Source: Crambe crambe
Lineage: Eukaryota > Porifera > Demospongiae > Poecilosclerida > Crambeidae
Length of the DNA stretch: 64,000 bases
Direction of reading: 5' to 3'
NCBI GenBank assembly: GCA_963924555.1
Contig: OZ004590.1
Coordinates: forward strand, 5,758,001 to 5,822,000
The number at the start of each line of letters is the position of its first letter. Position 1 is the stretch's first letter. Below, in pieces: positions 2,188 through 32,365 of this stretch. The notes beneath the pieces were generated by a model. That model had not been told where the DNA came from and made no database searches. It saw only the letters and a list, made by a program, of their open reading frames with translations. Both the position numbers and the translations under genes were made by a program.

Positions 2188-2480
2188 GACCAACTATCTC
2201 GATGTGTAACTGTCTGGATGTCAAGTCCATGCACTGTAGGTAATATTATTCTGTGCATACACAGGATATTTAGTTACTAGTTACTGAAGGATATTAATTA
2301 TGAGGAATAACTACGTAATTAAGATATTCTTATATCTGTGAACTAACTCACACTTTGCAACTCACTTATCTTTGTGGTCTAATCACTATTATGAATAAAC
2401 ATTCTGTGTGGCATTAATTATTGATTTTGCTGATCCAAAACTAACTTTAGTGGTTTGATTAAAGACTAATAATTGCATGC

Positions 2481-5728: not shown

Positions 5729-7223
5729 TCATGTGCAGACTAATTTTTTGTTTAACTGCTTCTTTCCACGTTCACATCCTCCGATCACTAAAAACTTCCT
5801 CTCAGCAATCATTACACAAGTGCAGTCTTCTCGTCGATGAGGTAAGTCTCCAACTTTTTCCCACCTCCTTTTCTCCGGTTCATAAAGTTGAATCATAGTT
5901 GTATTTTCCCCACCCACTACAAGCAGATGCCCATTAACGGTGAGAGGAGCAAAATTGCAGAGATAATGGCTTGATAGGTCCTTCCAGATCTGTCTGTCAT
6001 GCTTGCCAGAGACTAGTTGAGATATAAGAGATGAGAGTGACACACTGTACACTCTATCAGTACAATCTTCTGCTTCTCCTAGAACATACCAAATACCATC
6101 TGTTGTAGCAGTCTTCATCTTTATGCTACTCCAGCCAATTGGTATTGGAAGTGCTGCATACCATTGTCCATCTGTGGTGTTTAGGGTCTCGACAGTTATT
6201 TCATAGTCTCCAATATCTGAATAGCCTCCAGCAATTACTAGCCATTCTTCATACGCAACTGCAAAGCAGTATGAACGTGCTGTGGGCATATCAGGATAAG
6301 GGTGCACCCATTTCTTGCCTGTAGCTCTCCATATTCCCACTGTCTTACTTGTAGCATTATCCGCTTCCACTCCACCCACTAACACTAGTTGGTTGTTGAG
6401 CACTGCCATACCAAAGTAGCGTGTTTTATATGGTGGCAATGTGGCCCATTTTCCCATGTGAATGTCATATTCCATGACTGTGTACTTATTAATATCTGAT
6501 CCATTCCAACCTGACTTTCCACCTCCAACGTACACTTTCCCCTGCACCACAACTGACTGTGTTGAAATATACATATCAAACGGCATATCTGGACCACTCT
6601 TCCACAATAACTGGAGAGGAAATTTCAACTGAAGGGGCACCTATCAGAGAAGATGTGTATACATCATGTTGTACCCAGACCCTGCTTTTTTTGTGGCCTA
6701 TGAAAAAAGCGCAAGGTTACATGTGCACCATAGCATAGCTAGTCACTGACTTTCTCTGCTCCCTCTTGTTCATATTCCTTTTCCTGCAGCATCCACAACG
6801 TTTTGTTTAGTCTGCTCATCTCGGTATCTTTAGCTTCCAATTCCTTCATCAGATATGATTCTCTTGATTCAAAGTCTGAATACAATGTCTATAATTAAGG
6901 GCAACAATAATCTGAATTAGTCGTGTGAAGAAGAAAAGCTGGCTAGCAATGCCAGACTAGAGTTCAAGCAGGATATGGTTTTAGCTACAAGAATGTGCAG
7001 TAGAGTATGACTCACTTCTAAGTTAAATCCGTGTAGGAATCTTCACAACTTTTCAAGTCAACTTGGAGGCTTTCCTTTATGAAATTACAGCATTATAATA
7101 TAGCTGCTTGTTCCAATGAAAACTACAGCTACATACCACATGTTGAGTCAGTTCTCTGATTCTTTTATCTTTCATATCTATTTCCAAAAAGAATGCGTCC
7201 ACGTCCACGTGCTCAATAAGCAT
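5729..7223 (-). CDS. coiled-coil plus kelch-repeat protein, one frame break in exon 2
   Basis: Exons read as 7137-7223, 7016-7074, 6751-6888 and 5729-6640. The first codes for a 29-residue coil start (MLIEHVDVDAFF...[15 protein letters not shown]). The third is a coiled coil (MKELEAKDTEMSRLNKTL). The last codes for about 300 residues with five or six kelch blades (KVYVGGG, LVLVGGV, LVIAGGY, LLVVGGE, FLVIGG), a beta-propeller usually used for protein binding. Exon 2 has 59 bases and meets a stop; one more base in its AA run would give 60 bases, an open frame and phase 0 on both sides. That points to a single-base deletion or a sequence error. If real, the long exons could still be used from the internal ATG in exon 3 (MKELEA). 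The start lies 228 bp from the stop of the left BIRC6 copy. The first exon and most of the second are inside the 4-kb duplication. Confidence 0.7.
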
Positions 7224-10200
7224 AAGCTCATGCGCATGCGTGACATCACTCTCGGGCCTTTATTGCCTCCACAATATCACCATCTTTGTTCTCACACTGT
7301 TTTTGTGTCTATGCCTATGGGCTTGTTGGTACACATTATTTTGGTACACTTGTTCATAATTTATTATTATAATGGCAATTTGATTTTATATGCACTGATA
7401 ATAAATAATCTCATGAGCTCTGCATTCTTCCTATAGTTTTCAATATTATCCTACTGCCTTCCTCCTCCTCCACTGTCAGTTAGTTGAAAGTCCTCCTCTT
7501 TGATCTTATCCAGTTCTATCTTTAAAGTCTCCATGGACTTGTCCAAGGAATGGAGGTGCTCCTTGAGCAGATGAACTGAAGCACCTCCCTGTTTGATCCC
7601 TTCCTCTAGTTCCACCTTCCATGCTTCATACTGTGAGAAAATAGAGTCCTTTCTCAAATAGAAATGCTGCAAGATCACCTGAATAATTGTAAATAAACAT
7701 TTAGTGAACTGGGGTATCGTGGGTTTAAAGTGCAAACCATATAAATTTCATTAATCTGTGCACTATAATTATGGTACAATGAAAGCCTGTATTAAAGAGA
7801 CCACCCCACCTCTCTTTGAAAACCACTTGGTTACGTCCCACCTCTGGTAACGAAGACCACCTCCACCCATGAAGTGGTTGCTACAGACAGGTTTCACCGT
7901 ACTGAGATGTTTGCATACTGGGACTATGGACAATAACATACTTGTCTGAAGTAAGGGGTGGGGTTCCTGATCTGGTTGATCATAGCCCACATGATGGTGG
8001 CCACAGATATATTGGAGCTGTAGGCAAGGGATTTCTGATCCCCATAAAGCGTTCCTCGAGACTGCTCGTAACCAGGCTCATTGAAGTAGGGCTCTGGCAC
8101 CAATATGAGTGACTGGATGGACACCAGCACCTATGAAATCAAGGGGACTTAACAAACATAATCATATCAATATAAGCTACGGATCAATATGGATGAACGG
8201 CCCCACTCTCTAATCGCATTCTTTTTTAATTCTTTTTTATTATAATTATATAAGAATGCGCGAAATTAAAAAAAATGCGATTAAAGAGTGGGGCCGTTCA
8301 TCCATATTGATCCATAAGCTACTTTACTCACCTGCAATAAACTTGACGTTTGTCCATTCCACTTTTCTTCTGGTCTTCCATGCCAAGTATTCAGAACACT
8401 AAGGCATACCTAAAGAAAATACATAGATAGTAGCGGGCACAGGGTGGTGGGCACTAATTGAAATAATGAGGGTGGGCACTATTTCATACTTTGCCATCAT
8501 TGTAGAGGTTTGGGTTGAATCTGACCCTGCCATGGCCTGTGGTCTTGAGGTTGACTAGCATGGGAGATTTAGGGTAGTCAGTAGGGAAAAACACATCAAA
8601 CTCAAAGCAGCCATTGGCGTAGGGTGTATCTGATGGTCCAGTGATGAGAACCTACAAAAATAATAATAATAATTCGTAAGTGATTATGTAGTGATGTGGT
8701 TTCACCCCCAATGAATTCCCTCAGCAAGAAGTTACTTTCATGATGTCCAATCTCTCCTCATCACAACGAGCAAATACAGAAGAGGAAGGAGAGAGGGGGA
8801 GGGAAGTGGAGAGTGTAGAGATCTCTTGGGCCAGGCGTCTCGCACGAGCTGCATCATGGGTGGCAGCCACTGAATTCTCCACTTGAGACTGGTAATGAAA
8901 AGGGCAGGTGAATGTCACCCTCCCATTCTCATCCTTGCGGGTGATCTGATAGGTATCTGGAGAAATATAAATCACACACACACCTGTTAGTAATTGAGGA
9001 GTTCTCTCTACTGTATCCATCCATACACAATATCTCACCAAATTGTAGAGGTTTCATGGCCTTCATGTATGAGGCAGCTACCCCTTCAGATGACTCAGCG
9101 AGTGGAGTCAGAGGAGCACTAGAACTTGACTGTCTGCTATAACTCCCTGCTTCTCTCTTCAGCTCCTGCACCACACCAGCCACAATTTCAGACACCGACA
9201 GAATCTTGGTGATCAACTCTGCTAAATCTGCTTCATCTGCCTCATCCTTGGCTGGTGATTTCGACGTTCTCGAATTCGACAAGTGAAGCTTTTTGATACC
9301 CATTACCTTACTGTGGCTTTGGGAGGGAGCCAGGGGTACAGTCTGTGGAACCGTTGGTTGTGAAACTACTGGCATCATAGGAGGAAGACTAGAGGGATCC
9401 AAAGTCAAAGCCAGTTCCTCCAAGATGCTTTTATACTCTGAAAACTCAGCAGCTCCTGATTTGAGTTCTTCCGCTGTATCTTTGGCCTGGTTTTCACCTG
9501 TAGCTGCCTGCTCCTTCACGCAGTCCAGTGTTGGCACACCACTCTTCAAGTCACCTTCAACTTGAACTGATGATTTCTTCTCTTCCACTTCTTTCAAATC
9601 CTCCTCCTTCCCTGATTCCTCAAAAATTACGTTTTCACTCGCTATCGAATCTCCAATATCCTTCTGGTCATCGTCCTTTGACTGAATAGACGCTGTAGAC
9701 ACATTTTCTTCTTCATCTTTGGTGTCAGGAACTTCAATTTGTACACCTTCATTCTCACTGGCTGGTACTGTCACGTCATACTCTTCCAAAACATCAAACT
9801 GCACAAGTGTTTGTTCTTCAGTGGAGGTCGAGAGAGGGATATCACTGCCCACACTCTGTGACATTAGCTGTCCCACTGCCGTCGACGAGCTGATGGTGTG
9901 AGTGCTAATGGTAGTAGTGGCAACTGAGGGTCCAGTATCTTCTTTGTCTTGGGGGTGTGGTGGACTAGGAGTTCCACTTGTTGGGATGGTCACTCCAAGA
10001 CTAGCAGTTCTCTTTGGTGGCAGGGGGATACTGTCTTTCTTACTCCCAGCTTTAGGCTCCTTTATCCTGCACAGAATGAAAAACATTGTACCCATAAACA
10101 AACTAAAACAATTATTATCCATTCTACTTATTCTTACTTGGCAGTTCTCTGGTAGATGATAGCAATTTCTCTGAGTTTTGCCAGTAGCGATGCCAGTGAT

Positions 10201-11098
10201 GTGACTCCCTCAGAAGACGCCCCTCCCCCTTCCACTGAGAACACAGGCAGTGTCAACAGGTGCTGAGTGGCAGGATTGGTGGCCAGGGAAGAGACCAGGC
10301 TAAGGGTCATCTGATACAGCTCTATGTGCTTGGATATATCCAATACTAAAGGCAACAAGAGACGATATGATCACCAATAACTCCAATTGTCTACTACTCC
10401 TGTACCTGAATCATTAAGAAGATAAGAAGCTAGAGCTGGTAGCACACACGATTTACAGAGCAGTTCGATCAACTCGATATCAAAGCATTCGCTGCCATCA
10501 GAGGGTAGGAATGCATCCTCATCTCCGGCCCCTCCTCCTTGGCCAACCACACCTCCTTCCTTTTCCCCCTGACCCCCAGTGGAAGGCATACCACCAGCAC
10601 GGAAGGAGAAGAATTCAGAAAGGATTGCAAAGCAGATACTGACGTATTTCTCTTCCAACTTGTGCTTAGCCCTGACAGCAACCATGTTGTATGAGGTGGT
10701 GGTTGAACCAGTACCGAACCCAGTACCTTTGGGCCAATACTGCCTATCAACTGACGATGCTATTTTCTTTGGTTGTAGATTGCTATAGTGCAAAAGAAAC
10801 AATAGTTAGTATAATAAAATAGTGAAATCCCTTGGATATTTTACTCCATTGTGGTTGTGTTAAATACAGACAAAAGTTTGGCTTTACTTGCCTTTCTGCT
10901 AGGGATATTTGGTTGGTGATGGAGGCGTCAGTTTCCAGACGTGGGGAGTGGTGTCCTGCTGAGGCCAAGCATTGGAGGACAAGTTGCAGGAGACCCACTT
11001 GGTGGACTTTCCTCCGAAGACTCCTGCCAGCCACGCAGTGGCTTGGGAACTTGCGCAAGCTCTCCAGAAAGACAAGGTAGGGAAGGTAGGAGAGGTTC
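7043..11098. repeat. tandem segmental duplication, left copy (A)
   Basis: About 4056 bp, nearly identical by eye to 11099-15060. It contains the 3' end of BIRC6, its 3' flank, and the first exon plus most of the second exon of the kelch gene. The left edge falls inside kelch exon 2 (shared from tcacaactt). The right edge joins copy B within BIRC6 coding sequence at a short shared tctc. Differences from copy B include a 133-bp foldback insertion, in-frame coding indels of 21 and 9 bases, a 6-base in-frame insertion in the coil exon, and an 8-base loss at one splice donor. Confidence 0.9.
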
Positions 11099-11273
11099 TC
11101 ACAACTTTTCAAGTCAACTTGGAGGCTTTCCTTTATGAAATTACAGCATTATAATATAGCTGCTTGTTCCAATGAAAACTACAGCTACATACCACATGTT
11201 GAGTCAGTTCTCTGATTCTATCATCTTTCATATCCATTTCCAAAAAAAATGCGTCCACGTGCTCAATAAGCAT
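7451..11273 (-). CDS. predicted chimera: coiled-coil start fused to BIRC6 C-terminus with UBC domain
   Basis: The copy-B version of the kelch first exon (11193-11273, 27 codons, [10 protein letters not shown]...ELTQHV) has a GTATGT donor in phase 0. The next acceptor, at 11130, opens an exon that starts with the kelch-type coil [11 protein letters not shown] and crosses the duplication junction, in frame, into BIRC6 sequence [17 protein letters not shown]. All following BIRC6 C-terminal exons of copy A are present and open: the Gly-rich segment, the acidic linker, the UBC domain with [20 protein letters not shown] (active cysteine kept), and the end GGGGRQ. The product would be roughly 900-950 residues, with a coil in place of the N-terminal three quarters of BIRC6 and no BIR domain. 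One donor (after LDIMK) changed from GTAAGT to GTAACT. It could equally be an untranscribed partial duplicate or a haplotype assembly artefact. Confidence 0.5.
8181..8313. mobile_element. 133-bp foldback MITE, Mutator-like by target duplication
   Basis: Near-perfect terminal inverted repeats of about 40 bp (ends ggatcaatatgg / ccatattgatcc) and a largely palindromic AT-rich centre. It is flanked by the 9-bp direct repeat ataagctac (8172-8180 and 8314-8322). The matching place in copy B (near 12225-12240) has one ataagctac and no insert, so the empty site is seen directly. A 9-bp target duplication is typical of Mutator-superfamily elements. It sits in an intron between UBC-coding exons and has no coding capacity. 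Confidence 0.85.
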
Positions 11274-14200
11274 AAGCTCATGCGCATGCGTGACATCACT
11301 CTCGGGCCTTTATTGCCTCCACAATATCACCATCTTTGTTCTCACACTGTTTTTGTGTCTATGCCTATGGGCTTGTTGGTACACATTATTTTGGTACACT
11401 TGTTCATAATTTATTATTATAATGGCAATTTGATTTTATATGCACTGATAATAAATAATCTCATGAGCTCTGCATTCTTCCTATAGTTTTCAATATTATC
11501 CTACTGCCTTCCTCCTCCTCCACTGTCAGTTAGTTGAAAGTCTTCCTCTTTGATCTTATTCAGTTCTATCTTTAAAGTCTCCATGGACTTGTCCAAGGAA
11601 TGGAGGTGCTCCTTGAGCAGATGAACTGAAGCACCTCCCTGTTTGATCCTCTTGATCCCTTCCTCTAGTTCCACCTTCCATGCTTCATACTGTGAGAAAA
11701 TCGAGTCCTTTCTCAAATAGAAATGCTGCAAGATCACCTGAATAATTATAAATAAACATTTAGTGAACTGGGTATCATGGGTTTAAAGTGCAAACCATAT
11801 AAATTTCATTAATCTGTGCACTATAATTATGGTACAATGAAAGCCTGTATTAAAGAGACCACCCCACCTCTCTTTGAAAACCACTTGGTTACGTCCCACC
11901 TCTGGTAACGAAGACCACCTCCACCTATGAAGTGGTTGCTACAGACAGGTTTCACTGTACTGAGATGTTTGCATACTGGGACTATGGATAATAACATACT
12001 TGTCTGAAGCAAGGGGTGGGGTTCCTGATCTGGTTGATCATAGCCCACATGATGGTGGCCACAGATATATTGGAGCTGTAGGCAAGGGATTTCTGATCCC
12101 CATAAAGCGTTCCTCGAGACTGCTCGTAACCAGGCTCGTTGAAGTAGGGCTCTGGCACCAATATGAGTGACTGGATGGACACCAGCACCTATGAAATCAA
12201 GGGGACTTAACAAACATAATCATATCAATATAAGCTACTTTACTCACCTGCAATAAACTTGACGTTTGTCCATTCCACTTTTCTTCTGGTCTTCCATGCC
12301 AAGTATTCAGAACACTAAGGCATACCTAAAGAAAATACATAGATAGTAGCGGGCACAGGGTGGTGGGCACTAATTGAAATAATGAGGGTGGGCACTATTT
12401 CATACTTTGCCATCATTGTAGAGGTTTGGGTTGAATCTGACCCTGCCATGGCCTGTGGTCTTGAGGTTGACTAGCATGGGAGATTTAGGGTAGTCAGTAG
12501 GGAAAAACACATCAAACTCAAAGCAGCCATTGGCGTAGGGTGTATCTGATGGTCCAGTGATGAGAACCTACAAAAATAATAATAATAATTCGTAAGTGAT
12601 TGATTCGTAAATGATTATGTAGTGATGTGGTTTCATCCCCAATGAATTCCCTCAGCAAGAAGTTATTTAACTTACTTTCATGATGTCCAATCTCTCCTCA
12701 TCACAACGAGCAAATACAGACGAGGAAGGAGAGAGGGGGAGGGAAGTGGAGAGTGTAGAGATCTCTTGGGCCAGGCGTCTCGCACGAGCTGCATCATGGG
12801 TGGCAGCCACTGAATTCTCCACTTGAGACTGATAATGAAAAGGGCAGGTGAACGTCACCCTCCCATTCTCATCCTCACGGGTGATCTGATAGGTATCTGG
12901 AGAAATATAAATCACACACACACACCTGTTAGTAATTGAGGAGTTCTCTCTACTGTATCCATCCATACACAATATCTCACCAAATTGTAGAGGTTTCATG
13001 GCCTTCATGTATGAGGCAGCTACCCCTTCAGATGACTCAGCAAGTGGAGTCAGAGGAGCACTAGAACTTGACTGTCTGCTATAACTCCCTGCTTCTCTCT
13101 TCAGCTCCTGCACCACACCAGCCACAATTTCAGACACCGACAGAATCTTGGTGATCAACTCTGCCAAATCTGCTTCATCTGCCTCATCCTTGGCTGGTGA
13201 TTTCGATGTTCTCGAAAAAGAGATTTTTTCTGGTTTTTTCGACAAGTGAAGCTTTTTGATACCCATTACCTTACTGTGGCTTTGGGAGGGAGCCAGGGGT
13301 ACAGTCTGTGGAACCGTTGGTTGTGAAACTACTGGCATCATAGGAGGAAGACTAGAGGGATCCAAAGTCAAAGCCAGTTCCTCCAAGATGTTTTTATGCT
13401 CTGAAAATTCAGCAGCTCCTGATTTGAGTTCTTCCGCTGTATCTTTGGCCTGGTTTTCACCTGTAGCTGCCTGCTCCTTCACGCAGTCCAGTGTTGGCAC
13501 ACCACTCTTCAAGTCACCTTCAACTTGAACTGATGATTTCTTCTCTTCCACTTCTTTCAAATCCTCCTCCTTCCCTGACTCCTCAAAAATTAAGTTTTCA
13601 CTCGCTATCGAATCTCCAATATCCTTCTGGTCATCGTCCTTTGACTGAATAGACGCTGTAGACACATTTTCTTCTTCATCTTTGGTGTCAGGAACTTCAA
13701 TTTGTACACCTTCATTCTCACTGGCTGGTACTGTCACGTCATACTCTTCCAAAACATCAAACTGCACAAGTGTTTGTTCTTCAGTGGAGGTCGAGAGAGG
13801 GATATCACTGCCCACACTCTGTGACATTAGCTGTCCCACTGCCGTCGACGAGCTGATGGTGTGAGTGCTAATGGTAGTAGTGGCAACTGAGGGTCCAGTA
13901 TCTTCTTTGTCTTGGGGCTGTGGTGGACTAGGAGTTCCACTTGTTGGGATGGTCACTCCAAGACTAGCAGTTCTCTTTGGTGGCAGGGGGATACTGTCTT
14001 TCTTACTCCCAGCTTTAGGCTCCTTTATCCTGCACAGAATGAAAAACATTGTACCCATAAACAAACTAAAACAATTATTATCCATTCTACATATTCTTAC
14101 TTGGCAGTTCTCTGGTAGATGATAGCAATTTCTCTGAGTTTTGCCAGTAGCGATGCCAGTGATGTGACTCCCTCAGAAGACGCCCCTCCCCCTTCCACTG

Positions 14201-15060
14201 AGAACACAGGCAGTGTCAACAGGTGCTGAGTGGCAGGATTGGTAGCCAGGGAAGAGACCAGGCTAAGGGTCATCTGATACAGCTCTATGTGCTTGGATAT
14301 ATCCAATACTAAAGGCAACAAGAGACGATATGATCACCAATAACTCCAATTGTCTACTACTCCTGTACCTGAATCATTAAGAAGATAAGAAGCTAGAGCT
14401 GGTAGCACACACGATTTACAGAGCAGTTCGATCAACTCGATATCAAAGCATTCGCTGCCATCAGAGGGTAGGAATGCATCCTCATCTCCGACCCCTCCTC
14501 CTTGGCCAACCACACCTCCTTCCTTTTCCCCCTGACCCCCAGTGGAAGGCATACCACCAGCACGGAAGGAGAAGAATTCAGAAAGGATTGCAAAGCAGAT
14601 ACTGACGTATTTCTCTTCCAACTTGTGCTTAGCCCTGACAGCAACCATGTTGTATGAGGTGGTAGTTGAACCAGTACCGAACCCAGTACCTTTGGCCCAA
14701 TACTGCCTATCAACTGACGATGCTATTTTCTTTGGTTGTAGATTGCTATAGTGCAAAAGAAACAATAGTTAGTATAATAAAATAGTGAAATCCCTTGGAT
14801 ATTTTACTCCATTGTGGTTGTGTTAAATACAGACAAAAGTTTGGCTTTACTTGCCTTTCTGCTAGGGATATTTGGTTGGTGATGGAGGCGTCAGTTTCCA
14901 GACGTGGGGAGTGGTGTCCTGCTGAGGCCAAGCATTGGAGGACAAGTTGCAGGAGACCCACTTGGTGGACTTTCCTCCGAAGACTCCTGCCAGCCACGCA
15001 GTGGCCTGGGAACTTGCGCAAGCTCTCCAGAAAGACAAGGTAGGGAAGGTAGGAGAGGCT
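11099..15060. repeat. tandem segmental duplication, right copy (B)
   Basis: About 3960 bp matching 7043-11098. At its right end the sequence continues into BIRC6 exons not present in copy A (coding [17 protein letters not shown]), so this copy is contiguous with the rest of BIRC6. Its left end, at 11099, abuts the right end of copy A. It lacks the foldback element. Confidence 0.9.
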
Positions 15061-18000
15061 CTCTGTGAACACTTTCGGGAAGGAATCTACAATGGAGCAG
15101 ATACAGTCATGCTGATACTGTATAGTTGGAAACTTTTGTGAGGTGAACTTGACCTTTGACCTCAACAAGAGAAAGCCTACATTAGGTACCACTTTTAAAG
15201 AATGAGTTGTATAGTCAAGCCTATAAGGCTTTCCAAAAATTGATTCGATCTTCCGACCGCGATATACGCATCAGCACTATTCCCAGGTGGAGCGACTACT
15301 GTTTATACACATACCATATCACAAATTCTTCATTGGGTTTATAGTTTGCATTCCTTCTAGAATAATTGTGGTCATAATGAATACCACCATCTTAGTGGCA
15401 AAAGGCACTATGATAACAATTTACTGGTTACTGCAAACTAAAATACACATACAGGGTTTTGCAGAAAGATTGCAATGGAGCTTGAAGACTGAAGACCCAA
15501 GAGTAGTGGTAGCTAGAACAATAGGCCTGGACCACAGCAGTATAGCTCTAGCACAACAATTTGAGCATATTCTTGTTGCAAAGATTCTGCAAAACCCTGT
15601 ACATCCCTGGGGATATATAACCACCTCTATAACACACCTCTTATTGCTTTCTCTTCCCCGAATAGCAGAGATAATAGCATGAAAGCAGCAGATGGATTCT
15701 CACCAAGAACCTTTCCGAAGCCCTCCAGTTGCAGACACACACCTAACATGAGAACTGAGCGAAATGGAAGTACACTTGGAGGATTGAATATGGTGTGAGT
15801 CTTGAAAATTCCCCTTGGGGTAGCATCTGAGCTGGATTTGCTGTTGCCATTTGATGCAAAGAAACTAGGCCAGTGGTATGGATAGAGAGCTGGGATGCTT
15901 TGAGCCAGTGGTAAAAGCCCATTGTGCAGTATGAAGAGGTTGTACATATCCGGAGGTCTTTTTGTGGAATGTTCTGCATTGAAGAGCATGACTTTATTAT
16001 CCATCACTACGGTCAACGGATACTTCAGTCCCTTCGGAACAATATCACCAAGAATGTCGTAATCCATCCTTTTCCGTTTCTCTTTCTTCTCTCCTGCACA
16101 CGATAAAGAGAATAATGCTCAAATTAAATGATCCTACCAGAAATGCTACTACCATTGTGCATTCATTTTACTCCTTGGGAACAGAAAAAAGTAAATTTAA
16201 AATTTTTTTGGAGGGAGTCTTACTATATTGAGGTCCATTACATTTTGTGCCCTAAATGTTCACTCACCCTTTCCATCTTTAGCAACTTCCTTGCCTGGTG
16301 CTGGGATCTTCCAATGCTTCAACTCAAAGCTGGCTACATCTAAATTACTGGTACTTGAAGGAGCGAGTGTGCTTTTAGCAACAGCACTGGCAGTAGAAGT
16401 TGAAGTGGTAGTTGAAGTAGTCGGTGGTTTAACAGATGCACCACCCAATCCTTTCCTAACAGTCTTCTCAGTGGTTTTAGGCTCAGGTTTGCTAGGTGGC
16501 GGTTTTGTCATTTTATGGCTCAGTACAAGAGACTCAAACTGAGAGAGAGATGATGATCCAGGCACATGGAGGTAATAACACGATTCTCCAATGGGGTAAG
16601 AAGGGTGGAACTCTTGTGATTCAGTAGTCGAGGGGAGAGAGAGCGGGAAAAGAGGACTCTCTGTATCCACATTTGAATCGGAAGGGGCGATGACCCGAAG
16701 GATAATGGGAATGGTTTCGTGTTGGAAAATGATTCCCACTAGGAGCTTATGGAGAAAGGGAGTGAGGATACGATCACTTGAGATATCCGAGTTGAAACTG
16801 TACTCATTGCGCAAAGCATTGCATACGAGCTTGACAAACGCTTCCTTGGTATCATCACATCCTAGAATGCACACACTAAAGAACTCGTAGGATACTTCCT
16901 GAATGAAAGAAATTTCGAGAGGGGATACAATGGATGTTTCCATGGAGAGGAACTGAAGCATGGGTGACCAAAATCGATGATTATCACTGGAAGCCATCCA
17001 TGTTTTTCCAGGTCTCCAATTTCGCAGAAAATCGGTGAAAAATGCCAATAAACTGCACAGGTATAAGATGACATCCTGAGCGTTCTCTTTCAAAGGAACA
17101 TCAGATTTTTCATCATTGTTGGCGTCTGATGTCACAGGGTGGCATACCAGATGCAACAATTTTTCAAATCCGTTGGTCAATCTTGAAATCATCCTTGAAA
17201 GTAATTCAGACTCTAAAAGTATCTTGGTACTGGAGACAGACTGCGCAGCTTGAGCCAGAGTGTTGAGGCGGTGACCAGCCTTATCTATCCCAGTGATGAG
17301 AACATCCTCACAGGCTGCCAATAGTAGAGAAAAGTGTTGCTGATTTGAAGAACAGAGAGAGCACAAGAGAGCATTGAGTGATGCTTTGTATCTGGAGCCT
17401 GGCTCTAGAGAAAATGCAAGCTCGACTAAGGAGCGGAAGGTTTCTTCAGAACAGATAGACTCCATGGATTTGCCGTGCCAGATCATGTGACTGAGAGCAC
17501 ACATGAGACGAGGGAGGTGACTGCCTGGAGGGGTCTTGGACGGAGGGAGGTTGGACAACAGCCGTAGTGAAGTGGACAGTCTGGAGGGGAGAAATACAGA
17601 ATTCAATATTAGATGTGCCACATAATGGATCTGTTCTTAATCACATGCATATCAATACTACAGTTACCTTTGCCTGCTGACATTAGATGTTGGCTTGCAT
17701 AGCTCTGATAACAGGCGGAAAGAAAAGGTGATATCTTCACTTGACATGTTCTGAGGGTCTTGGCCATCCAAAGACTTGTTCAGGGAGAAACCAAATAAGT
17801 AATGGAGCACGGTCACGCCATGGTCTGCAGAATCTTCAGCCAAAGCTATCAGCAGGTTCTCCAACTGGGAGGCAAACTTCCTACTACAAACAAGAAAAAT
17901 AATTATGTAAACAAAAACAAAATAAACAAACAAAAATGGAGTACACAGTACATATAAGGATTAAATTTGGGAGTTTGAGGTTTTAGACTTACTCAGTGTG

Positions 18001-21000
18001 CTTAGTGGAGTTCAGTAGGGCTAAGCAACTAGGGAGGAGGTCAGGTAGGTCACCAAACAGAGATTTCACAGCTTGAACCGTCTCCGGTGAGGAGGAGCTG
18101 AGCCACTGATCCACTATATCCAACCAACCTGAACTACAGTACATAAATTATACATAGTGTGATGAAATGAGTACTAGGGTATATGTATCATCACCACACA
18201 ATGTAAATCACTAGTTTGTGGAGCCCCTCTATGTGAACTATTGGAAATAAATTTACTCTTAAAGTAAGAAACACGCCCTTTAACCAGGACATAAATTTAC
18301 TCTTAAAGTAAGGAAACTGCCCTCTAACCAGGACATCTTAAAGTAAGGAAACTGTCCTCTAATCAGGACATCTTAAAGTAAGGAAACTGCCCTCTAATCA
18401 ATCAGGACATCTTAAAGTAAGGAAACTGCCCTCTAATCAGGACATCTTAAAGTAAGGAAACTGCCCTCTAATCAGGACATCTTAAAGTAAGGAAACTGCC
18501 CTCTAATCAGGACACTTTTTTTTCTGGCCCTAAACCGTTAAATTCCAGCAATGACTAACCCTGGCTGCTCCCGATCTTGCTGAGTCAGTGATGGAGTAGA
18601 TACTGAGCTGGCTACGATGGTTTCGGCACTATTACCGAAACTGGTTCCTAATATCTCCACTCTTGACAACACAATGGAAGCGGAGAGCAAGGGACGGTGG
18701 AAATGAACCACCATGTGCTGAACTAACACAGGTAGCTGGAAGGCGACATTGACGAGTTTGAGACTGTCTGTTTTGAAGACAGGAGTCACCGGAACAGCGG
18801 AGTTTGGTCCTCCATGGAGAGAGCAATCAATAGTGAGCATGGAGGGTGTGGCACTACCACTTTCGACAGGCAAATAACATATGAAATTATGGAGGAGAAT
18901 TGGATGAGGAAGTACGACATGAAGTTGAACCCATTTTTCATTTTGCTTGAAGGTATACTGAAACAAAGGTGTAGTGGTTTTTGAAGACTGTGTAACTTTC
19001 ACCATTCCTTTGCTTGAGTTGAGGTAACAAGTAGAAAGAGAGAAGAAGTCCACTAAGCTGCAGGAGTCGCTGATGGTTTTAGGAGGCGAGTCCTTATGTC
19101 CCAGTTTACTGATGGCATGGATGAATAAATCTTTATTGCTGGACATGGATGAAGTCTGTTTTGAGCATCCCATCAAACCCTTCAAGACCATCAACCCACC
19201 TCCACTTAGAATGAATTCGTGCATTTTGGAGAGACCATGTTTCTGGCCATCGGTGAGAGTTGGGTGTTGTGTGATGAGGGAGATGAAAAGTTTGGAGAGT
19301 CTGGCGTCCCCCGGGGAGTGGTCAAGCACGCGTTGAATCGGCTGAAAGAAGCAGGACAAGTCTTCACAGCTGTTGTATAGGAAGAGAATGAAGTCATGAA
19401 ATGAATTCACTTGGTCAGGTTTTGGCTTTGCACAATGACACGAATGAACCTGATCGGGTCCGGTCTTGTTGGAATGGGCCGATATCAAATTGAGGATTTG
19501 CAAGTATTTAAACAAGAGATTTGAGTCAGCATAAACAACTGCTAAAGGGGATAACGATTTCGTACGTGCCAATTTTGAATAATCAACATGTTTTTCAGCT
19601 TCTTTGCAAAATTTTTTGTGACAATACTGCTGTAAAGAGTCAGTATCTGTGGTTCGTAGATCAACAGAAAGGATGCTCGTCAGGAGATGGAAGAGCTGGG
19701 ATGAGAATTCTTTAAGTCCGATGGTGCTTGTTTTTGTTGGGTTCCATGTGCGTTTGTGTAGCTCGTTGATGAGTACATATTGCTTACGTCTGGACTCTTC
19801 GACTTCAGCTCCGAATAACTTCACTCCTACACATTTTGAGGCATAATATGATGCATTACAACCATATAAGGGGGAAACCATCCTATGATTAGATTTCATT
19901 CTCTCCTAGCTAAAACACTGGCGATGTTAGTATATTCCAGTAAACTGTATGTATACACTGATAAGTGGGGACTTTCATATACCTGGGAAAGAGTTTTCAT
20001 TGAGAGCGTCTGGCACCAGCTCAGCCACCAACTCACACAAGGCATGAACCAGATGCAAGACGTGAGAGAGAGAGTCCTCTGGATAAACCCGCAAAGCCTC
20101 ATGTAATTTTTCTTCTCGCATAGTCTTGGACAGGTCAGAGAGAAAAGAGTAATCCTGGATTGCTGTGTCCCTATAAAGAAAAATCATTTTGCAGGTGGTA
20201 TTGAAGGAGAAATCTGCAATTCGGAAAACCTGATTTTTAATTTCTTATAAGGAAATCTGATTCTTAATTTGCAATTCATTATAAGGAAGCACGATTTCTA
20301 GGAAATAATTAATTGTAAGCAATTCCGATTTCTCAATTCGCAATTCCTTATAAGGAAACCCAATTTCTCAATTTGCAATTCCTTCCAAGGAAACAGCTTT
20401 GCTACTCACTACTCACTGTATATACACAAGACATACCTTTTCTGCAAAGCTGTGATGAACACCTCTAAGAGCAAACAGCTTCCAGAGAGCTTGCTAGTCT
20501 TGGCTGTGCTGAATAGCCCCACCTTCAGGTCTATGAGGGAGCGAACTATCTTCCTGATCAAGTCTGTCACATTGAAAGGAGAGAACAGAAAGAACTTGAC
20601 TAGAAGCAACACCAGTTTATCATAATCAACACTTTGATCTTCCTTCTGGAAAGCACCAAGACTTGTCAGAATATTAACCAAAGATAACTGCCACATGGCA
20701 GGCGAAATGCAAGTCGAAGAGATAAGAAAATCCACCAAAATGTGATAGCAGTTCCTGGAAGCAATAGGTTGTGCTGCCTGGTCCTCTTTACCAGACGCCA
20801 GCAGCACAGTATTCAGTTCATGCCAGAGGGATAAAACTGTTAACAAATCGGTGTCGTTTAGCAATTGGTGTTGGTCAGTTGCACTTTTCAGGAGATTTTC
20901 CAAAGACTGTGAAAGCATGGAGATTGTATCTTGAAAAACAATGCCATGATTAGACCCTGCTGCTGTCTCTAAATACATATCATCGACTGTTGATACATCC

Positions 21001-24000
21001 TCTTCCTGGGGTTTAACCAGCGAAGGTGAGAGAGGTTTTGGACTCAAAAGAGTTGAAAGGATAGATCTGTAAACTTCTCTTGCAACTTTCTGGAGCTGTA
21101 GCTCTGCTAAATACTGCGGCATACACAAACTCCTATACTCGATAGTGCTGGAGATGATAAATGTGTGATAGTGAACTGACTTCACTCTAGAAACTTGCTT
21201 CTTTTCTTCAGTCAAGCTTGTCGAAGACTGATTTCTGTGGTAGGCAAATCGTTTCAAACGAAAAGAAGATAGAGACATGCTTGTAGATGGAGTTTTCGTC
21301 TTCACCTTGAATATAGCAGCTGGCTCTGGTTTCTCGCTCTCAATTTCACCAGTTTTCTGTTTTTCCAGCTTCAGAGAAGGTCTGACTTCCCCATAGTAAA
21401 GCATGGACATGCAGAGATTTTGCAGTGTCCTTCGATGCCATTCCAGGATTGATGCTTGGCTAGCAGAGTCATTTGAAGACGTGTTGCACAAGACGTTGGA
21501 CGTAGCATAGGATAAGAGGACGTTGAGTTCCTGCTGGGTGACCAGAGTGTGCAGAGGGTATGACCACTTGGTGGATGATAGAAGCAAAGAAATCAACTGG
21601 AAAAATTATAGATTTTTTTCTTACAGTATGCAAGACAGGAATACACAGTGTCTGTATTACATATTCATTATCATGGACTGACCTTGCTGAGAACGGGTAT
21701 AAAGTCACTGTCAGCCTCGCCCTTGCAGAGGGCCAGCACATACTTGACTAAGCCTCTTATCACTGAATGACACAGATCTTGTGGCAAGTTAGCGAGGACA
21801 GGATCAGGCTTGGTCTGCTCTTTGGACGGGGAGGGGAGCAAATCATTGACAGATGCAGTGGACGGACTGCACAATGATTCCCTCTGTGACCACAAAGCCT
21901 CCAGTTTCTTGTTAAGTTCATGTTGCTAGTGATAATAATAATGCATAGAATTGGAACCCTAAAATGCAACAACCAGACTACTACTGGGATAATCTATGGA
22001 TATATACAATAACAAGGGAATCTGTAAGGAAGGAAATACCAGTATGATCACTGAGGAAGAAAGGAAAGCAAACGAGTTGTAACTATTGCCTACATCATAT
22101 CAAAATTCACACCTAAAATTCTGCACTATACAGTACCAGTTCCTTCGTGACCTGTCCCCCATTCAAATTGAACTATCATATCTCAGCCAGCTGAAATCTT
22201 TTAACTTACATAACTTACAGATATATATTGAGATCTGGTGAGTGTTTCCTTGATATCCACTTTATCTGAAGCCATGTCAACAGTTGGAGGATTTATGGGG
22301 AGGGGCACAAAGAGATTGGAGAGGGAATTGGAAGAGACAACGGAGGAGAGGAAATGGGAGAGCAACATGATTACCCAACAAAGCAGAGAGTGGTCAGAGT
22401 TTTGGTTGTGGAGGACTGTCTGATCTGTGATTTCCATAAAGTGAGAGAGCTTGTCCTGTAGGAAGTGGAGAATGCGAGGAAGAAGATCACTGGTACTGTA
22501 TGTGTGTTGAGATAAAGCTGACAACTGCAGCAGTGCTCTGCAAGCAAGGAATAGAGAAACATAGTAAATCCATTTTTAGTGAAGTCAACTCAAAAAATAA
22601 CCATCACCAATACTTACTATATCACCAATACTTACTATAGAGTAGGAATTTTCATGGATTTAGATTATTGAAAAACCACGTACATGAAAATTTTTTCGCA
22701 CTACCATACCTTTCTTTGTTAAATATGGCTGTCTGCTGTGTCCCAAAGAGATCAATTGCCATTTTGATGACAAACTCTCCCCACCAGTTCTGAGAGCCAC
22801 CAAACTTGATGAGGAGCGCAATAGCCCTGGCATGCATCTTTGGGATCCCATGGATACAGAGTGCATTAAACAAGACCTTGCACTCATCCTCCGTCAACAT
22901 GGGCAGCTGATCAACCAACACTGCATCCAAACTAAATCCTTCATCCTCAGCTACTCCATTCTGATCCAGTTCATTTTGTTGAGCTGAAGTAGGTGTTAAA
23001 TTGTCTGCGCTCTTTTTCGGTGGAGTGCTATTGAGTGCCAACAGAGTATCCACTAGACATCCGATCAGCTTGCTCAGTTTGCTGATTGAATACTGCTGGT
23101 AATCAATGTCAGAGACGTCAGGGAGCCCAAAAGCACCACTTTGATCATCACTCCCATGTTTTGTCTCGTTCAAGGATTTCTTGAAGTTCCTGAGGCGTGC
23201 TAAGCAGACTTGCGTCTTGTAGCACTGCTGGTAATCCCTGTTCACCCTCTCCTCATACTGCTTGGAGCAGGGGGTGTTTCCGTGCAGGTTAGTGTAGGAG
23301 AGGAGGGCAGAGGTCAGACTATCACGATAGAGGTAGTACTGGGAGAGAAGACGTTCCTCCAAGGACTGGAGTTGCTCCACAGAAGGTGATTGGTCGACAC
23401 TGAAGAAGGGAATGCCATAAAAGGCACCAATGAATACCTGCGTCATTTCCTTAGTGTTCACCAATGATCCCAGAAAAGTTACCTGTATGTGGTACACCAT
23501 AATAGATCCATACATGTACAGTGTACATATCATATACATGTAGCATGCATGTACATACAGCATACATGTACATGTCACTATGTAACTTCATGTACATGTA
23601 AATCAGTACAGTATGAACAATGCATGTGTTGTGTTCTCACCTTAACGTACTGACAGAGAGGGCGGGGAGTAAGACTGCCCAACATCAAGGATCTGGTCTT
23701 GATCTCCAGAGACTGGGCCACTCGTACCCCTTCGCTCTTCTCCCCTCCCTCATTCAACCACACGTCCACCGACACAGACGACATAGACCCAGTGGCGGGG
23801 ATGCTAATATCAGTCAACAAAACAGGCTGAGGAAATTTGAGCAGAGCAGAGTAAGCCACTCCTGATTTGAGAGAATCAATTTGCATCACGAGTTCTTTGG
23901 GAGAGGCACTGATATCAGCAAGTATTTGAGGTATGGGATTGGAGGTGGAATTCGAAATGCGATTTTGGAATGTCTTTTCTTGGTCGGTGTGAACAATCGG

Positions 24001-27000
24001 GTACTTGTATCCGGATGTCTTGGAGATTAGGGAGACTTGTGGCTGCTGTGATTGGTTTTCAGGCACGTGTGGAAGAGTGTGAATGCTTGGCTCCAGGACA
24101 GTAGCATTTCCTGATACGGATAAACACATGTAGGCCAGCGGGAGAGTTTCCAGAAGACCCCGTTGACTGTACAGCAAAAACGAACCATGTTTATAAGTTG
24201 TGAATTCCTCAATAAACTTCTTTTCCTGATTCTTTTTCGTCTTTTTGGATGAATCCAGTAAGAGTTGGAGTTCAGAGTCATAAATAGTGTGCCCACTTTT
24301 GTCAGTTACAATGTGTGTAGTACCGGGCGGAATGTTGCTCAGTGAAGAGGCCGAAAATGCCGATTGGTTTGAACTTGTAACGGCACCTTGGGTCGATGGA
24401 AGGTACAAATAACCTGTTGATGCACCTGGTCCAAGAACAGTAGGGGCTGACCAATTAATAGCACCAGCGTCAGCCTCAAGAGGGTTAAAGTTCAAGTCCA
24501 TAGAGAGGGGAAGGGCAGTGCCGGGGGGAAAGAACATTTGGGTGTTCCCACCATATGGATTGCCGCCACTTTGCACTGGTTTTGCCTTTGTGGTGAAAGA
24601 GCTCTTTTGGCAGTAGGAGAGGTAGATATCGAATAGTTCCGGCTCGAATACTGACCCTTCATGCTTGAAACTGCAAAGAGAGGGAATGCATGCAGATAAA
24701 GAAATGTATTCATCATTACTGAAAAAGGAAGTTAATCTATGAAATGGGGGCCACCTCTCCTATTAGAATACTATTTTGTGTCCCAAAAATGCAATTTTTG
24801 TAGGGTAAAAAGTTTGTGGTTTATGCAAAAATTGCTTCAGAATTGCAAAAATTTCCCGCTGTAAGTAATTCTGATTCTTATGCACTGGAACTGACTTTGT
24901 TTGTAGGATCTGTGCAGGTAGGGAGTTCTTCATGCTGAGGACCCGACTCAAATCCACCAGCAGCTGCTTACAAATGTTGGAGATGCAGGGGGTATCAGGG
25001 GGTGTGGTCAGGGTGGAGAGCAGACGCAGGAACCAGTGGACACAGGAGGCAGAGGAGAACAGGGGGAGGAGGGGTAGCAGGTGTGTCAGGGACTCGGAGA
25101 GCATGAAACGAAACTGGTTGGTCAGGTCAGACTCATCTCCACTCCTGCTGGCATGAAAAGTTAGCACATTTGAGTGTTATTGGTATCATGAAAAAAAAGG
25201 CCATTTTTTGACATTTCCCAAGGCGGCGACCTGGTAAAAGTTGTGAAAAATGGTCTTGTTTTTTTGTGTCAAATTTAGGATTTAACTGACCGATTTAGGT
25301 TTTAAATGAATCTAGGCAGGCATCATGCCAAAGGGTTAGATTCACATTTGAGTGTCATTAGTATTGTGATAAAAAAGGCCATTTTTTGATATTTTCCCAA
25401 GGTGGTGACCTGGTAAAAGTTGTGAAAAATGGTCTTAATTTTTTGTGTTAAATTTAGGATTTAACCGACCAATTTAGGATTAAAATGAATCTAGGCATCA
25501 TGCCGGAGGGTTAGAGTGTCATTGGTATCATGAAAAAAAAAGGCCGTTTTTTTTTTGACATTTTCCCAAGGCGGCGACCTGGTAAAAGTTGTGTTAATTT
25601 TCTGTGTCAAATTTAGAACTGACCAATTTAGGATTCTACGTAGGCATCATGCCGAAGGGTTAGATTCACAGTTGAGTGTCATTGGTGTCGTGAAAAAAAA
25701 AGGCCATTTTTTGATATTTTCCCAAGGCGGCGACCTGGTAAAGCTGTGAAAAACGGTCTTATTTTTTTGTGTCAAATTTTGGATTTAACTGACCAATTTA
25801 GGTTTTAAATGAATCTAGGCATGGTTAGATTCACGTCATTGGTATTGTGAAAAAAAAGGCCATTTTTCCCAAGGCGGTGACCTGGTAAAAGTTGTAAAAA
25901 ACGGTCTTATTTTTTTGTGTCTAATTTAGGATTTAACTGACCAATTTAGGTTTTAAATGAATCTAGGCATCATGCCGAAGGGTTAGATTCACATTTGAGT
26001 GTCATTGGTATCGTGAAAAAAAAGGCCGTTTTTTTGACATTTTCCCAAAGCGGCGACCTGGTAAAAGTTATGAAAAACGGTCTTAATTTTCTGTGTCGAA
26101 TTTAGGTTTAAACTGACCGATTTAGAATCTAGGCATCATGCCAAAGGGTTGAATTCACATTTGAGTGTCATTGGTATCATGAAATAAAAGGCCATTTTTT
26201 TGATATTTTCCCAAGGCGGCAACCTGGTAAAAATTGTGAAAAATAGTCTTAATTTTTTAGGATTTAACTGACCAATTTAGGTTTTAAATGAATCTAGGCA
26301 TCATGCTGAAGGGTTAGATTCACATTTGAGTGTCATTGGTATCGTGAGAAAAAAAAGGCCATTTTTTTGACATTTTCCCAAGGCGGCGACCTGGTAAAAG
26401 TTGTGTAAATAAGGACTTAATTTTTTTTTTTGTCGAATTTAGGATTTAACTGACCAATTTAGAAATAAAATGAATCCAGGCATCATGCCAATGGGTTAAA
26501 TTCACATTTGGGTGTCATTGGTATCGTGAAAAAAAGGCCATTTTCCCAAGGCGGCAACCTGGTAAAAGTTTTCACGGTCTTAATTTTTATGTTATTAAAT
26601 TTAGGATTTAACTGACCAATTCAGGTTTTAAATGAATCTAGGCATCATGCCGAAGGGTTAAAATTCACATTAGGTATTGTGAAAAAAAAAAGGCCGATAT
26701 TTTCCCAAGGCGGCGACCTGGTAAAAGTTGTGAAAAATGGTCTTAATTTTTTTGTGTCAAATTTAGGATTTATCTGACCAATTTAGGATCTAGGCATCAT
26801 GCCGAAGGGTTAGATTCACATTTGAGTGTCATTGGTATCGTAAAAAAAAGGCCATTTTTTTGACATTTTCCCAGTAAAAGTTGTGAAAAATGGTTTGTGT
26901 TAAATTTAGATTTTAAATGTATCTAGGCATCATGCCGAAGGGTTAGATTCGCATTTGAGTGTCATTGGTATCGTGAAAAAAAAAAAGGCCATTTTTTTGA

Positions 27001-30000
27001 CATTTTCCCATTAAAAGTTGTAAAAAACAGTCTTAATTTTTTGTGTCAAATTTAGGATTTAACTGACCAATTTAGATTAAAATGAATCCAGGCATCATGC
27101 CAAAGGGTTAGATTCACATTTGAGTGTCATTGGTATTGTGGGGAAAAAATGAATATATTTTCTCTAGGCGGCGACCTGGTAAAAGTTGTGAAAAATGGTC
27201 TTAATTTTTTGTGTTAAGGATTTAATCGCTGAAAATGATCTGAGAGAACTCAGTACATAAGCAGTAAAACTAACCTGTACAACATCATAATCAGCTGAGA
27301 ACACTTATGAGCCAGCAGTCTATTCCCTTCCAAGTAGCAGGAATACATAAGAGAGAGCAATAGCTGACTGACTGCGCCAGACATCACTGCATACCCACCA
27401 TCCTCAGCACTCACACAGTGCACACAACCCATCCATAGCAGCAAATCGAAGGCCTTTTCTTGGGCTTCCTTGGAGAGAGGTACTTGTCCTTCCCTCACGC
27501 TGGACTGGAGGGCTGCAGGTAAGTTTCTGAGTTCGCTATGTTCGATCTTTGCATTGCAGGCGGCCACGGCAACTCTGAGGATGAAGGAGGGGTCGCGGAT
27601 GCTGGCAGTGAGGTGGCTAAAGCCCAGGGGAGACTGTTTCAGAGAGTCAACACTGGCAGTCACTGGAAACACATTCACTATCAGATTAGCCTATAATAAT
27701 CACATCAGAACATGATATTTTTATACACCACAATCTTTGTTTAGTTTGAGAAATTTTGTGGGTGTGGACTTTGTGGTTTTGAAATTAATTTTAATATACT
27801 AATGCAAACCACAAAAATTTGACCCCACAAATTTTATGCCATACATCCTTACCTGAACTGGAACAGAATATTTATTAGAATCGGATTGTAAAGACTGCTG
27901 GACGTGGTGCCTGAAGGCTCGATGCTTCCATGCCTGTCTGCGAGAGTTAGCCTCACTCCCTCCAGGAGCATTGACCTCAAAAACAGCAATGTCCTTATAC
28001 TCAGAAGGGAATAGGTGCTCAAATGTCAATAAGAGGACTTGTGTCTGTGAAACCAACAGCAATGGGTGCACGAGGTATAGCTGTAAAGATTGCTCGGTGA
28101 CACTGATAAGTGGTTTCAGTTTCATCGGTCCACAGAGCAGCTTCCTTGGAGTTGTTTCCTTGCTCTTTGCTGAGCTGGCACTTTTCTTCGTTCCCACCTC
28201 CGGCAGGAAGAGGGAGAAAGTGGCATTTTCGCTGATGCAGCAAGCATTTGCAAATGAGAGCTTGATGCTCACACACCCCAGGGGAACAGGTCGAGGACCC
28301 TCGAGAATCACTTCAAATTCATACCTTCAAGGAGAAAATGACAGAATACACTATTACACTAAGCAAATGCAAAAATCCATGCTATTATAACTTGAAGGAC
28401 ACCCCTACAACCAGAATACAGTTTTCTCAACCCCCAAAAAGGTTTCATTCCGATCCATGTACAAGCTGATACCTTTTGAGGAAAGAAGGAGTAACAGGTG
28501 GTTCATATTGCAAGATCCTGGAATTGTCCACATTCTTTTTCTTTCCAGGGCCCTTCCAATGACAATGATGCAACTGTTCCGGAGGTGTGTTGATGTGAAG
28601 TGGACTCTGTCGGTTCAATTCCAGCAGCGAGATCTCCTTCCAGTGAGCAGGTGTCATGCACCTAAAGGGAACACTAAGATGGGAACACCGCATAAGATTC
28701 AGTAAGTTGTCAAAATCTTCTAAGTGTAATATCCGATCGATAACATAAGATGAAGCATCAGATGATTCCTCAACATCTTCTTTGCTCTCTGCAATGTCTT
28801 CTTTATCGATCCATTTCAATTTGAGCAGCTTTCCACTTTTTGAAGAGACGAACAGGTGAGATGTAGTTGGGCAGTACACGCAACTTGTAAACTGGTCATC
28901 GTCTCCGACCCCTTTGCACTGATAGGTACTTAGTTTAAACAATTCCCCACCAGCGCAATCACAAATGACCAGTTCCCCGCAACTGCTAAGAGAGGCCAGC
29001 AAAATCCTCCCTGTTTCATTATCGTTGATGATGGGAGAAAAATGAACTCTAGGAGAATGGAATAGGGTACCAGCTGACGGCTCTGAAATGATGCCTTTCA
29101 TTCCAGGACCAATTTTGTAGAGATGAAGGAACGTGTTTTCTGGATTGGAATTATCATTGGATGCAGTGCATGCCACCGCAAGCAATCGTCCATTATCCAG
29201 AGGTATAATCTGACTCACTTCAGGTACCAACCCGCTATCCAGATCGCACGCATATTCCATAAAAGGCATGATGGAAACCACATCAAAGGTCACAACAGCA
29301 TTTTCCTGTGCCTGAGTTGGAATGGGCATGGAGAGATTGCTAGGAATTGGTTCGTTCATCTCCAAAAAGTCGGCATTTTGGACAAAGGCTCCCCCTCCCA
29401 TATTAAGTGGCTTAGTCTTGGCTAATGAGTGTTTCTTCACCTTGACCTGATGAACAACAAGCATTGGAAACAAGTGACGGTTTTGAGTGTCTCTCATTGT
29501 TACCCCTGTAATTAACATTGAACAGGAAGTTTCTGCTGAATCGGGTGTGGCAGGGGTGCCCAGAACCTGTTTGAAGACTGATAGAGATGTGATATGAAGA
29601 TCGTGCTTGCTAGTTGGTGTCTCACAGTCCAGAGTTGCAGATGGCTTTTGCTTTATAGTATTATCATCATCTGGAGCCAATGATGGAACGACCTGATCTT
29701 CCTTTGAAGGTTCTGTGCTGGTACTGGGTGCTTTCAAGTCAGTATCACCGTCAACATTGTCATTCTTTGCAGCTGAAGTGTGATTGTCAGCGAGTGTTTC
29801 ACTGGTGCTGTCAGGAGAATGGTTATGTGTGTGTTTTTCCAACCACTGTTGGAGAATATTGGTTGTCAACTGCAAGGTAGCACACTCCTGTGAAGAAATT
29901 CAAACAAAGAGATACAGTCAAATTGATTGTGGGTCTGAAAAGTGTACTCAGGGAATTTTTAACTCACTGTTATTAGCAGTCCATGATCCATGTCCATTAA

Positions 30001-32262: not shown

Positions 32263-32365
32263 GCTAGAAAATTTTTTGCTTATTCATCATGCTTACAAAA
32301 TAGAGCGCATGAAGGGTTAAAAAGGGAATCATGTGAATCGCGCGCGCGGGCTTGGATTAAAGATA
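32263..32365. promoter_or_regulatory. shared BIRC6/AVEN-like intergenic promoter region
   Basis: Only 103 bp separate the start codons of two divergent genes. The gap holds a CG-rich stretch (cgcgcgcgcggg near 32339) unusual for this AT-rich window. No TATA box is evident. It is presumed to hold both promoters, unless untranslated exons lie elsewhere. Confidence 0.5.

Follow-up and report, generated by a model that had tools for sequence, protein, structure and literature searches.

Tandem duplications that cross gene boundaries are described as a source of chimeric genes in a report on Drosophila yakuba (PMC5460883). Here we analyzed a stretch of 64,000 nucleotides from the sponge Crambe crambe (contig OZ004590.1, positions 5,758,001 to 5,822,000 of the forward strand; the whole stretch is called the window), in which such a duplication places the 3' end of a BIRC6 gene next to exons of a kinase/coiled-coil/kelch family and leaves an open chimeric frame. 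A further described system that bears on the locus is BIRC6 itself (BRUCE/Apollon; structures 8atm, 8e2d and 3ceg). The tail and the ubiquitin-conjugating (E2) domain of the chimera align with BIRC6, from about 4213 to 4804 in 8atm, whereas the chimera lacks the BIR and scaffold regions and is adjoined by a longer BIRC6 gene. In our reading the locus is a recent tandem duplicate with an orphan BIRC6 3' end that is most likely decaying, rather than a working gene.

A very likely recent tandem duplication with a gap-free join

The duplicated unit and its junction are as follows.

7043..11098, no strand assigned: tandem copy A, comprising a truncated 3' end of BIRC6 and then two small exons of the kinase/coil/kelch family
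11099..15063, no strand assigned: tandem copy B, comprising the 3' end of a BIRC6 gene that extends further upstream, and the same pair of small exons
11096..11100, no strand assigned: A/B junction with a 2-bp microhomology (TC, 11099-11100) and no N
8181..8313, no strand assigned: terminal inverted repeat (TIR) element of 133 bp with a 9-bp target duplication, GTAGCTTAT, in an intron of copy A only; copy B holds the empty site

Copies A (7043-11095, 4,053 bases) and B (11099-15058, 3,960 bases) lie head to tail and differ at 35 of 3,904 aligned positions (99.1% identity), with eight indels of 21, 2, 9, 15, 142, 1, 9 and 6 nt. The homology extends slightly further, up to 11100 and 15063, at the cost of one more mismatch. 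The two sequences joined at the junction are non-homologous, sharing only the two bases TC; no N occurs anywhere in the window, and the join is gap-free. A search of the whole assembly for further copies found no third copy and no second junction; the other matches were to the 133-bp element, to E2 exons and to a repeat resembling window 7774-7901 (73-94%). This last stretch lies in an intron of copy A and resembles repeats on C20, C3, C1 and C16. The duplication is certainly beyond chance, and very likely both real and recent. We propose that a local duplication of about 4 kb arose through end joining or template switching, with only these 2 bp of shared sequence at the join. One side of the join would be the middle of a coil exon in a 5'-truncated kinase/coiled-coil/kelch paralogue, and the other the middle of a BIRC6 exon close to the 3' end of BIRC6.

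The largest A/B indel consists mainly of the 133-bp element. Copy B has a single GTAGCTTAT and no element, and since it thus holds the empty site, copy A acquired the element after the copies separated. Matches to the element occur at 24 other places in the genome, 12 of which cover most of its length at 91-98% identity. Its 9-bp duplication is reminiscent of Mutator-like elements.

We considered whether the two copies might instead be the two haplotypes of a single-copy locus, placed side by side by the assembler. A divergence of about 1% falls within the allelic range of many invertebrates. False duplications are a known assembly problem according to one report (PMC9516828), and the description of the present assembly states that it is incompletely phased and that curators took out 18 haplotypic duplications (PMC12166358). 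Such an error would, however, require a false overlap of unrelated sequences to produce a gap-free join between non-homologous sequences with 2 bp in common. In addition, the mean HiFi read, computed from the counts given in PMC12166358, is 6.9 kb and exceeds the duplicated unit, and the assembly contains no leftover third copy.

The protein database provides a further argument. Entry P0241, the representative and the only sequence read of a 90% cluster with three member sequences, is an unspliced frame from an 864,564-base ENA contig and is 99% identical to the long BIRC6 exon. It differs from copy B by one residue (V to M) and from copy A by more, and its intron end and length are like those of copy A. 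P0241 shows that B's form of the long exon also exists outside this assembly. If P0241 comes from the same individual, this further variant weighs against an artefact, because one diploid animal with a single-copy locus would not carry three. Taken with the form of the join, this makes side-by-side haplotypes very unlikely.

Similar entries turned up with the kelch protein of the locus: it gave 470 matches, with a highest identity of 53% among the best 120, and 11 of the 120 rows listed are 95-100% identical to paralogues in this genome. The protein database thus includes genomic contigs from this sponge or from one nearly identical to it. As P0241 is unspliced and runs into the intron, such entries cannot show a spliced chimera.

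An open frame across the junction

The exons of the candidate chimera and the corresponding BIRC6 exons of both copies are as follows.

11193..11273, minus strand: candidate chimera exon 1, its 3' part homologous to the end of the paralogues' kinase-linker exon
10892..11130, minus strand: candidate chimera exon 2, a coil exon fused in frame to a BIRC6 exon, with a weak acceptor
10782-10406, 10345-10138, 10066-9039, 8956-8736, minus strand: copy A BIRC6 exons (overall 7451..10782)
8651-8490, 8409-8332 (active-site Cys), 8130-7942, 7678-7451, minus strand: copy A BIRC6 exons, continued
15058-14855 (frame runs upstream to 15270), 14745-14369, 14308-14101, 14029-12981, minus strand: copy B BIRC6 exons (overall 11501..15058)
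12896-12676, 12567-12406, 12325-12248, 12188-12000, 11737-11501, minus strand: copy B BIRC6 exons, continued

Joined on the minus strand, the chimera exons form a frame of 936 codons plus a stop, without internal stops, that ends at 7451. Exon 11273-11193 has a phase-0 donor (GTG/GTATGT), and exon 11130-10892 follows the acceptor AAAG/GAA, starts with GAA and enters BIRC6 in frame. All eight copy A BIRC6 exons that follow are likewise open as far as the stop, and the active-site exon is intact. On these points, and on the duplication itself, an earlier sequence-only reading of the window is borne out: it had described the tandem unit, the in-frame passage of a kelch-type exon into BIRC6 at the junction and the open state of every downstream BIRC6 exon of copy A, including that of the UBC active site.

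By Pfam the chimera contains UQ_con (PF00179) alone, at 88.1 bits against a cut-off of 27, and thus no BIR domain. The context of the active-site Cys, which we take to be the catalytic cysteine of the E2, is identical in A and B and aligns to human NDGKVCLSILNTWHG with V/I as the sole change. The candidate coil shows heptad spacing (I20 L23 V27 L30 L34 C37). An in-frame fusion as such hardly goes beyond chance, being about a one-in-three event: of the three frames leading up to the join, two stay open for only 1 and 4 codons and one for 17, and it is this longest one that runs into the BIRC6 frame. The BIRC6 part of the chimera is open because it is a copy diverged by only about 1%. We also noted that one BIRC6 intron has a GC donor (AAG/GCAAGT) in both copies, at 14855/14854 in B and 10892/10891 in A.

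Splicing and start signals

The acceptor that the chimera requires, ATTTCATAAAG/GAA, is weak as judged from its sequence. It ends in AAG and follows a tract with 50% pyrimidine, whereas the acceptors of all eight BIRC6 introns in copy B are CAG or TAG (C or T at -3) with 67-83% pyrimidine, and the coil acceptor of paralogue L031 ends in GTAG with 72% pyrimidine. At 62 nt the chimera intron itself is ordinary compared with BIRC6 introns of 59-262 nt.

The 227 bases between the BIRC6 stop and exon 1 contain two matches to AATAAA/ATTAAA, at 11415 and 11314. These bear on a further reading, in which transcription of BIRC6 runs past the terminal exon of copy B and is spliced into copy A, giving a repeated or swapped tail with no coil fusion. 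The copies share one orientation and have compatible donors and acceptors around their E2 exons; such a transcript would nonetheless have to skip both the BIRC6 terminal exon and the two AATAAA/ATTAAA matches, and we regard it as highly improbable.

Origin of the two small exons

Comparison with paralogues L031 to L036 and with the gene at window 381-2193 identified the source family of exon 1, exon 2 and the kelch gene. Exon 1 matches the last part of the kinase-linker exon, which reads MKDRRIEELTQQQ/ in L034 and L036, and its donor sits at the same point. Exon 2 aligns with the coil exon of L031 (/ERYQADLERLQAE...), with the same phase-0 acceptor /GAAAG and the same donor TTAGAA/GTGAGT. Both small exons thus descend from real, internal exons of the family. 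The idea that exon 2 is a chance open stretch was rejected, as L031 shows it to be an exon by descent, in favor of the sequence-only reading. That reading had placed the kelch "first exons" in the unit together with the BIRC6 3' end, and had taken 11193-11273 for an intact first exon with a matching donor. Descent from real exons and the phase-0 donor agree with this; the exons are internal, the kinase part is missing, and exon 1 corresponds to the 3' end of an internal exon in the paralogues.

The remaining parts of the kelch gene are as follows.

7137..7223, minus strand: copy A counterpart of exon 1
7016..7074, minus strand: complete coil exon of 59 nt that corresponds in copy A to exon 2, frameshifted and with an in-frame TAG; donor GAA/GTGAGT as in L031
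6751..6888, minus strand: coil exon, TLYSDFESRESYLMKELEAKD..., 48-53% identical to six paralogues
5729..6640, minus strand: exon encoding kelch repeats, in the 5'-truncated kinase/coil/kelch paralogue

Pfam detected a kinase domain in six of the seven family members examined (L031, L032, L033, L034, L036 and the gene at window 381-2193); L035 showed no kinase frame under the motif filter. By contrast, the kelch gene at 5729-7223 lacks the N-terminal kinase, for which the 227 bases between exon 1 and the BIRC6 stop leave no room, and it has a frameshifted coil exon. It is a 5'-truncated kinase/coil/kelch paralogue. Because the kinase exons are missing here, the chimera inherits no ancestral start, and its upstream part comes without the parent gene's 5' end. 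Exon 1 has phase 0, as does the exon that starts at 6888. As the coil exon in copy A is frameshifted and contains a TAG, the later exons of the kelch gene are usable only by skipping it; the chimera stays open because the breakpoint precedes this defect.

Kelch matches number at least 107 in the genome, and the family forms large arrays. Dense stretches occur on C13, the contig of the window, at 2.19-2.45 Mb and again at 5.741-5.765 Mb, the present locus falling within the latter. The neighboring member at window 381-2193, with its kinase by Pfam, is on the minus strand. At window 4124-5602 (plus strand) are open frames that resemble, by eye, an astacin-type metalloprotease.

Divergence of the copies and the state of copy A

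Coding differences between A and B comprise 14 synonymous and 11 nonsynonymous substitutions and two in-frame indels, one of 7 codons and one of 3. Measured against introns and flank (12/1,209), 10.3 nonsynonymous differences are expected and 11 were seen. In a neutral simulation of 907 codons, 65-39% of runs remained stop-free with 13-30 substitutions, a range that we chose from the divergence; stops alone were scored, not indels or splice sites. The open fusion frame is explicable without selection, and the selection data do not decide.

Three substitutions could be polarised, at positions 85, 620 and 826 of the shared tail (P/A, K/E and Y/C); those at positions 18, 153 and 889 were left unpolarised. 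A database search with chimera residues 620-930 gave 1,460 matches, with a highest identity of 73% in the best 120, and residue states were counted in the BLAST-aligned part of these 120 homologues. At all three positions copy B agrees with human BIRC6 and has the commonest state, and copy A has a rare residue (A 65, P 3; E 62, K 5; C 59, G 29, A 12, Y 6). Copy A has also lost the segment KKPEKIS(F), to which about 24 homologues align, with few gaps where it begins. The three-residue indel, a gap in 9-12 of about 70 homologues shown, points more weakly in the same direction. P0241 retains the seven-residue segment and shares the copy B state at five further substitutions of the long exon.

Several observations weigh against a decaying copy A. 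The ratio of nonsynonymous to synonymous differences is 0.24 (11/2,066 against 14/628 sites), below the value of about 0.5 expected if A evolved freely and B were frozen (P = 0.049), and both coding indels keep the frame (chance 1/9). Synonymous sites diverge more than introns and flank (P = 0.038), which is unexplained, and part of the A/B divergence may be older allelic variation. The Tyr at the Cys position occurs in six homologues, and the agreement of P0241 with B polarises only weakly because P0241 may be an allele of copy B. Finally, TATAAA (11440) and TATAA (11421) lie between the BIRC6 stop and exon 1; a new promoter is conceivable, and in a stretch of 35% GC either match may be chance.

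We weighed whether the chimera could be a functional new gene; the sequence-only reading had proposed an E2-like protein with a coiled coil in place of the BIR and scaffold regions. In this view the small exons of copy B would contribute the start and a short coil, and splicing to the BIRC6 tail would yield a BIR-free E2 that may dimerise through the coil. The open 936-residue frame with its matching splice phases, the descent of both small exons from real exons, the E2 domain with its intact active-site context and 88.1-bit score, the heptad spacing, the TATAAA match at 11440, and the ratio and frame-preserving indels speak for such a gene. The lack of an inherited start exon, the weak acceptor, the rare residues of copy A at conserved positions and its lost seven-residue segment speak against it. 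On balance the frame and domain content of the earlier proposal stand, and a functional gene appears unlikely.

The BIRC6 gene upstream of copy B

11501..32270, minus strand: BIRC6 gene, rough extent; 5' end placed by eye; three pieces match solved BIRC6

The frame of the first BIRC6 exon in copy B runs upstream past the duplicated unit. The tail aligns with 8atm chain positions 4213-4474 and 4468-4804, and two of five upstream pieces matched BIRC6 among solved structures. One of them, a frame at 18.5-19.9 kb, matches positions 3230-3358 of 8ivq (E 4e-5); the other, at 30.0-30.2 kb, matches positions 377-446 of 8e2d, which we take to be the end of the BIR and beyond. The pieces are in the right order. 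Frames at 16.3-17.6, 20.4-21.6 and 28.4-29.9 kb had no match among solved structures at E 0.01, and the Pfam BIR profile, run over the genome, hit a single place on another contig and none at this locus. Judged from these alignments, BIRC6 is likely intact upstream of copy B.

A genome search for BIRC6-like E2 exons gave 13 matches, eight of them at this locus and the others at 62% identity or less. Apart from this locus, C11 carries an inverted pair of E2 exons at 5284767 (minus) and 5287675 (plus), 56-57% identical to those of BIRC6. Within the window, about a dozen repeat copies spaced by about 130-180 bases occupy 25199-27289, probably in a BIRC6 intron, and a 35-bp repeat array lies at 18266-18544.

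Fate of the chimera

We favor the following account. BIRC6 would keep its working 3' end in copy B, and the BIRC6 tail of copy A would be an orphan 3' fragment that inherits no known promoter, drifts and, if transcribed, would be poorly spliced. The 936-codon frame may still be open because the duplication is young, the breakpoint fell in frame and it precedes the frameshift in the coil exon. At most, a rare transcript would encode about three coiled-coil heptads joined to the final ~650 residues of BIRC6, with the E2 domain among them. That the chimera is a newborn gene whose transcript is translated into a BIRC6-type E2 without a BIR, carrying a short coiled coil that stems from an expanding kinase/kelch family, seems improbable.

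If expressed, the chimera would represent young and structurally clear exon shuffling, by which a ubiquitin-conjugating domain of an early-branching animal came under new control. If it is not expressed, the locus cleanly illustrates how open but decaying fusion frames are left behind by tandem duplication, and calls for caution in the gene annotation of Crambe crambe.

Comparison with known systems

Among the titles listed on BIRC6/UBC duplication or chimeras (20 of 637) and on tandem-duplication chimeras (20 of 34), none reports this fusion. Short BIRC6-type E2 models of similar length include a Corticium candelabrum BIRC6-like isoform X2 (913 aa) and an Oscarella lobularis "probable ubiquitin-conjugating enzyme protein 17" (881 aa). 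Precomputed Pfam domains include a BIR in none of the best 120 of the 1,460 BIRC6-type E2 matches, a set in which many are fragments and which admits only lengths near that of the query.

The junction described here unites parts of two genes in one orientation. Like the D. yakuba chimeras as that report describes them (PMC5460883), it places upstream exons from one gene in front of the 3' end of the gene next to it. It differs from them in that the upstream part consists of internal exons of a gene that was already 5'-truncated, and because these exons come from a gene without a 5' end, a promoter was not obviously carried along. With this difference, and on the description given there, the event is of a known kind, that of tandem-duplication chimeras (PMC5460883).

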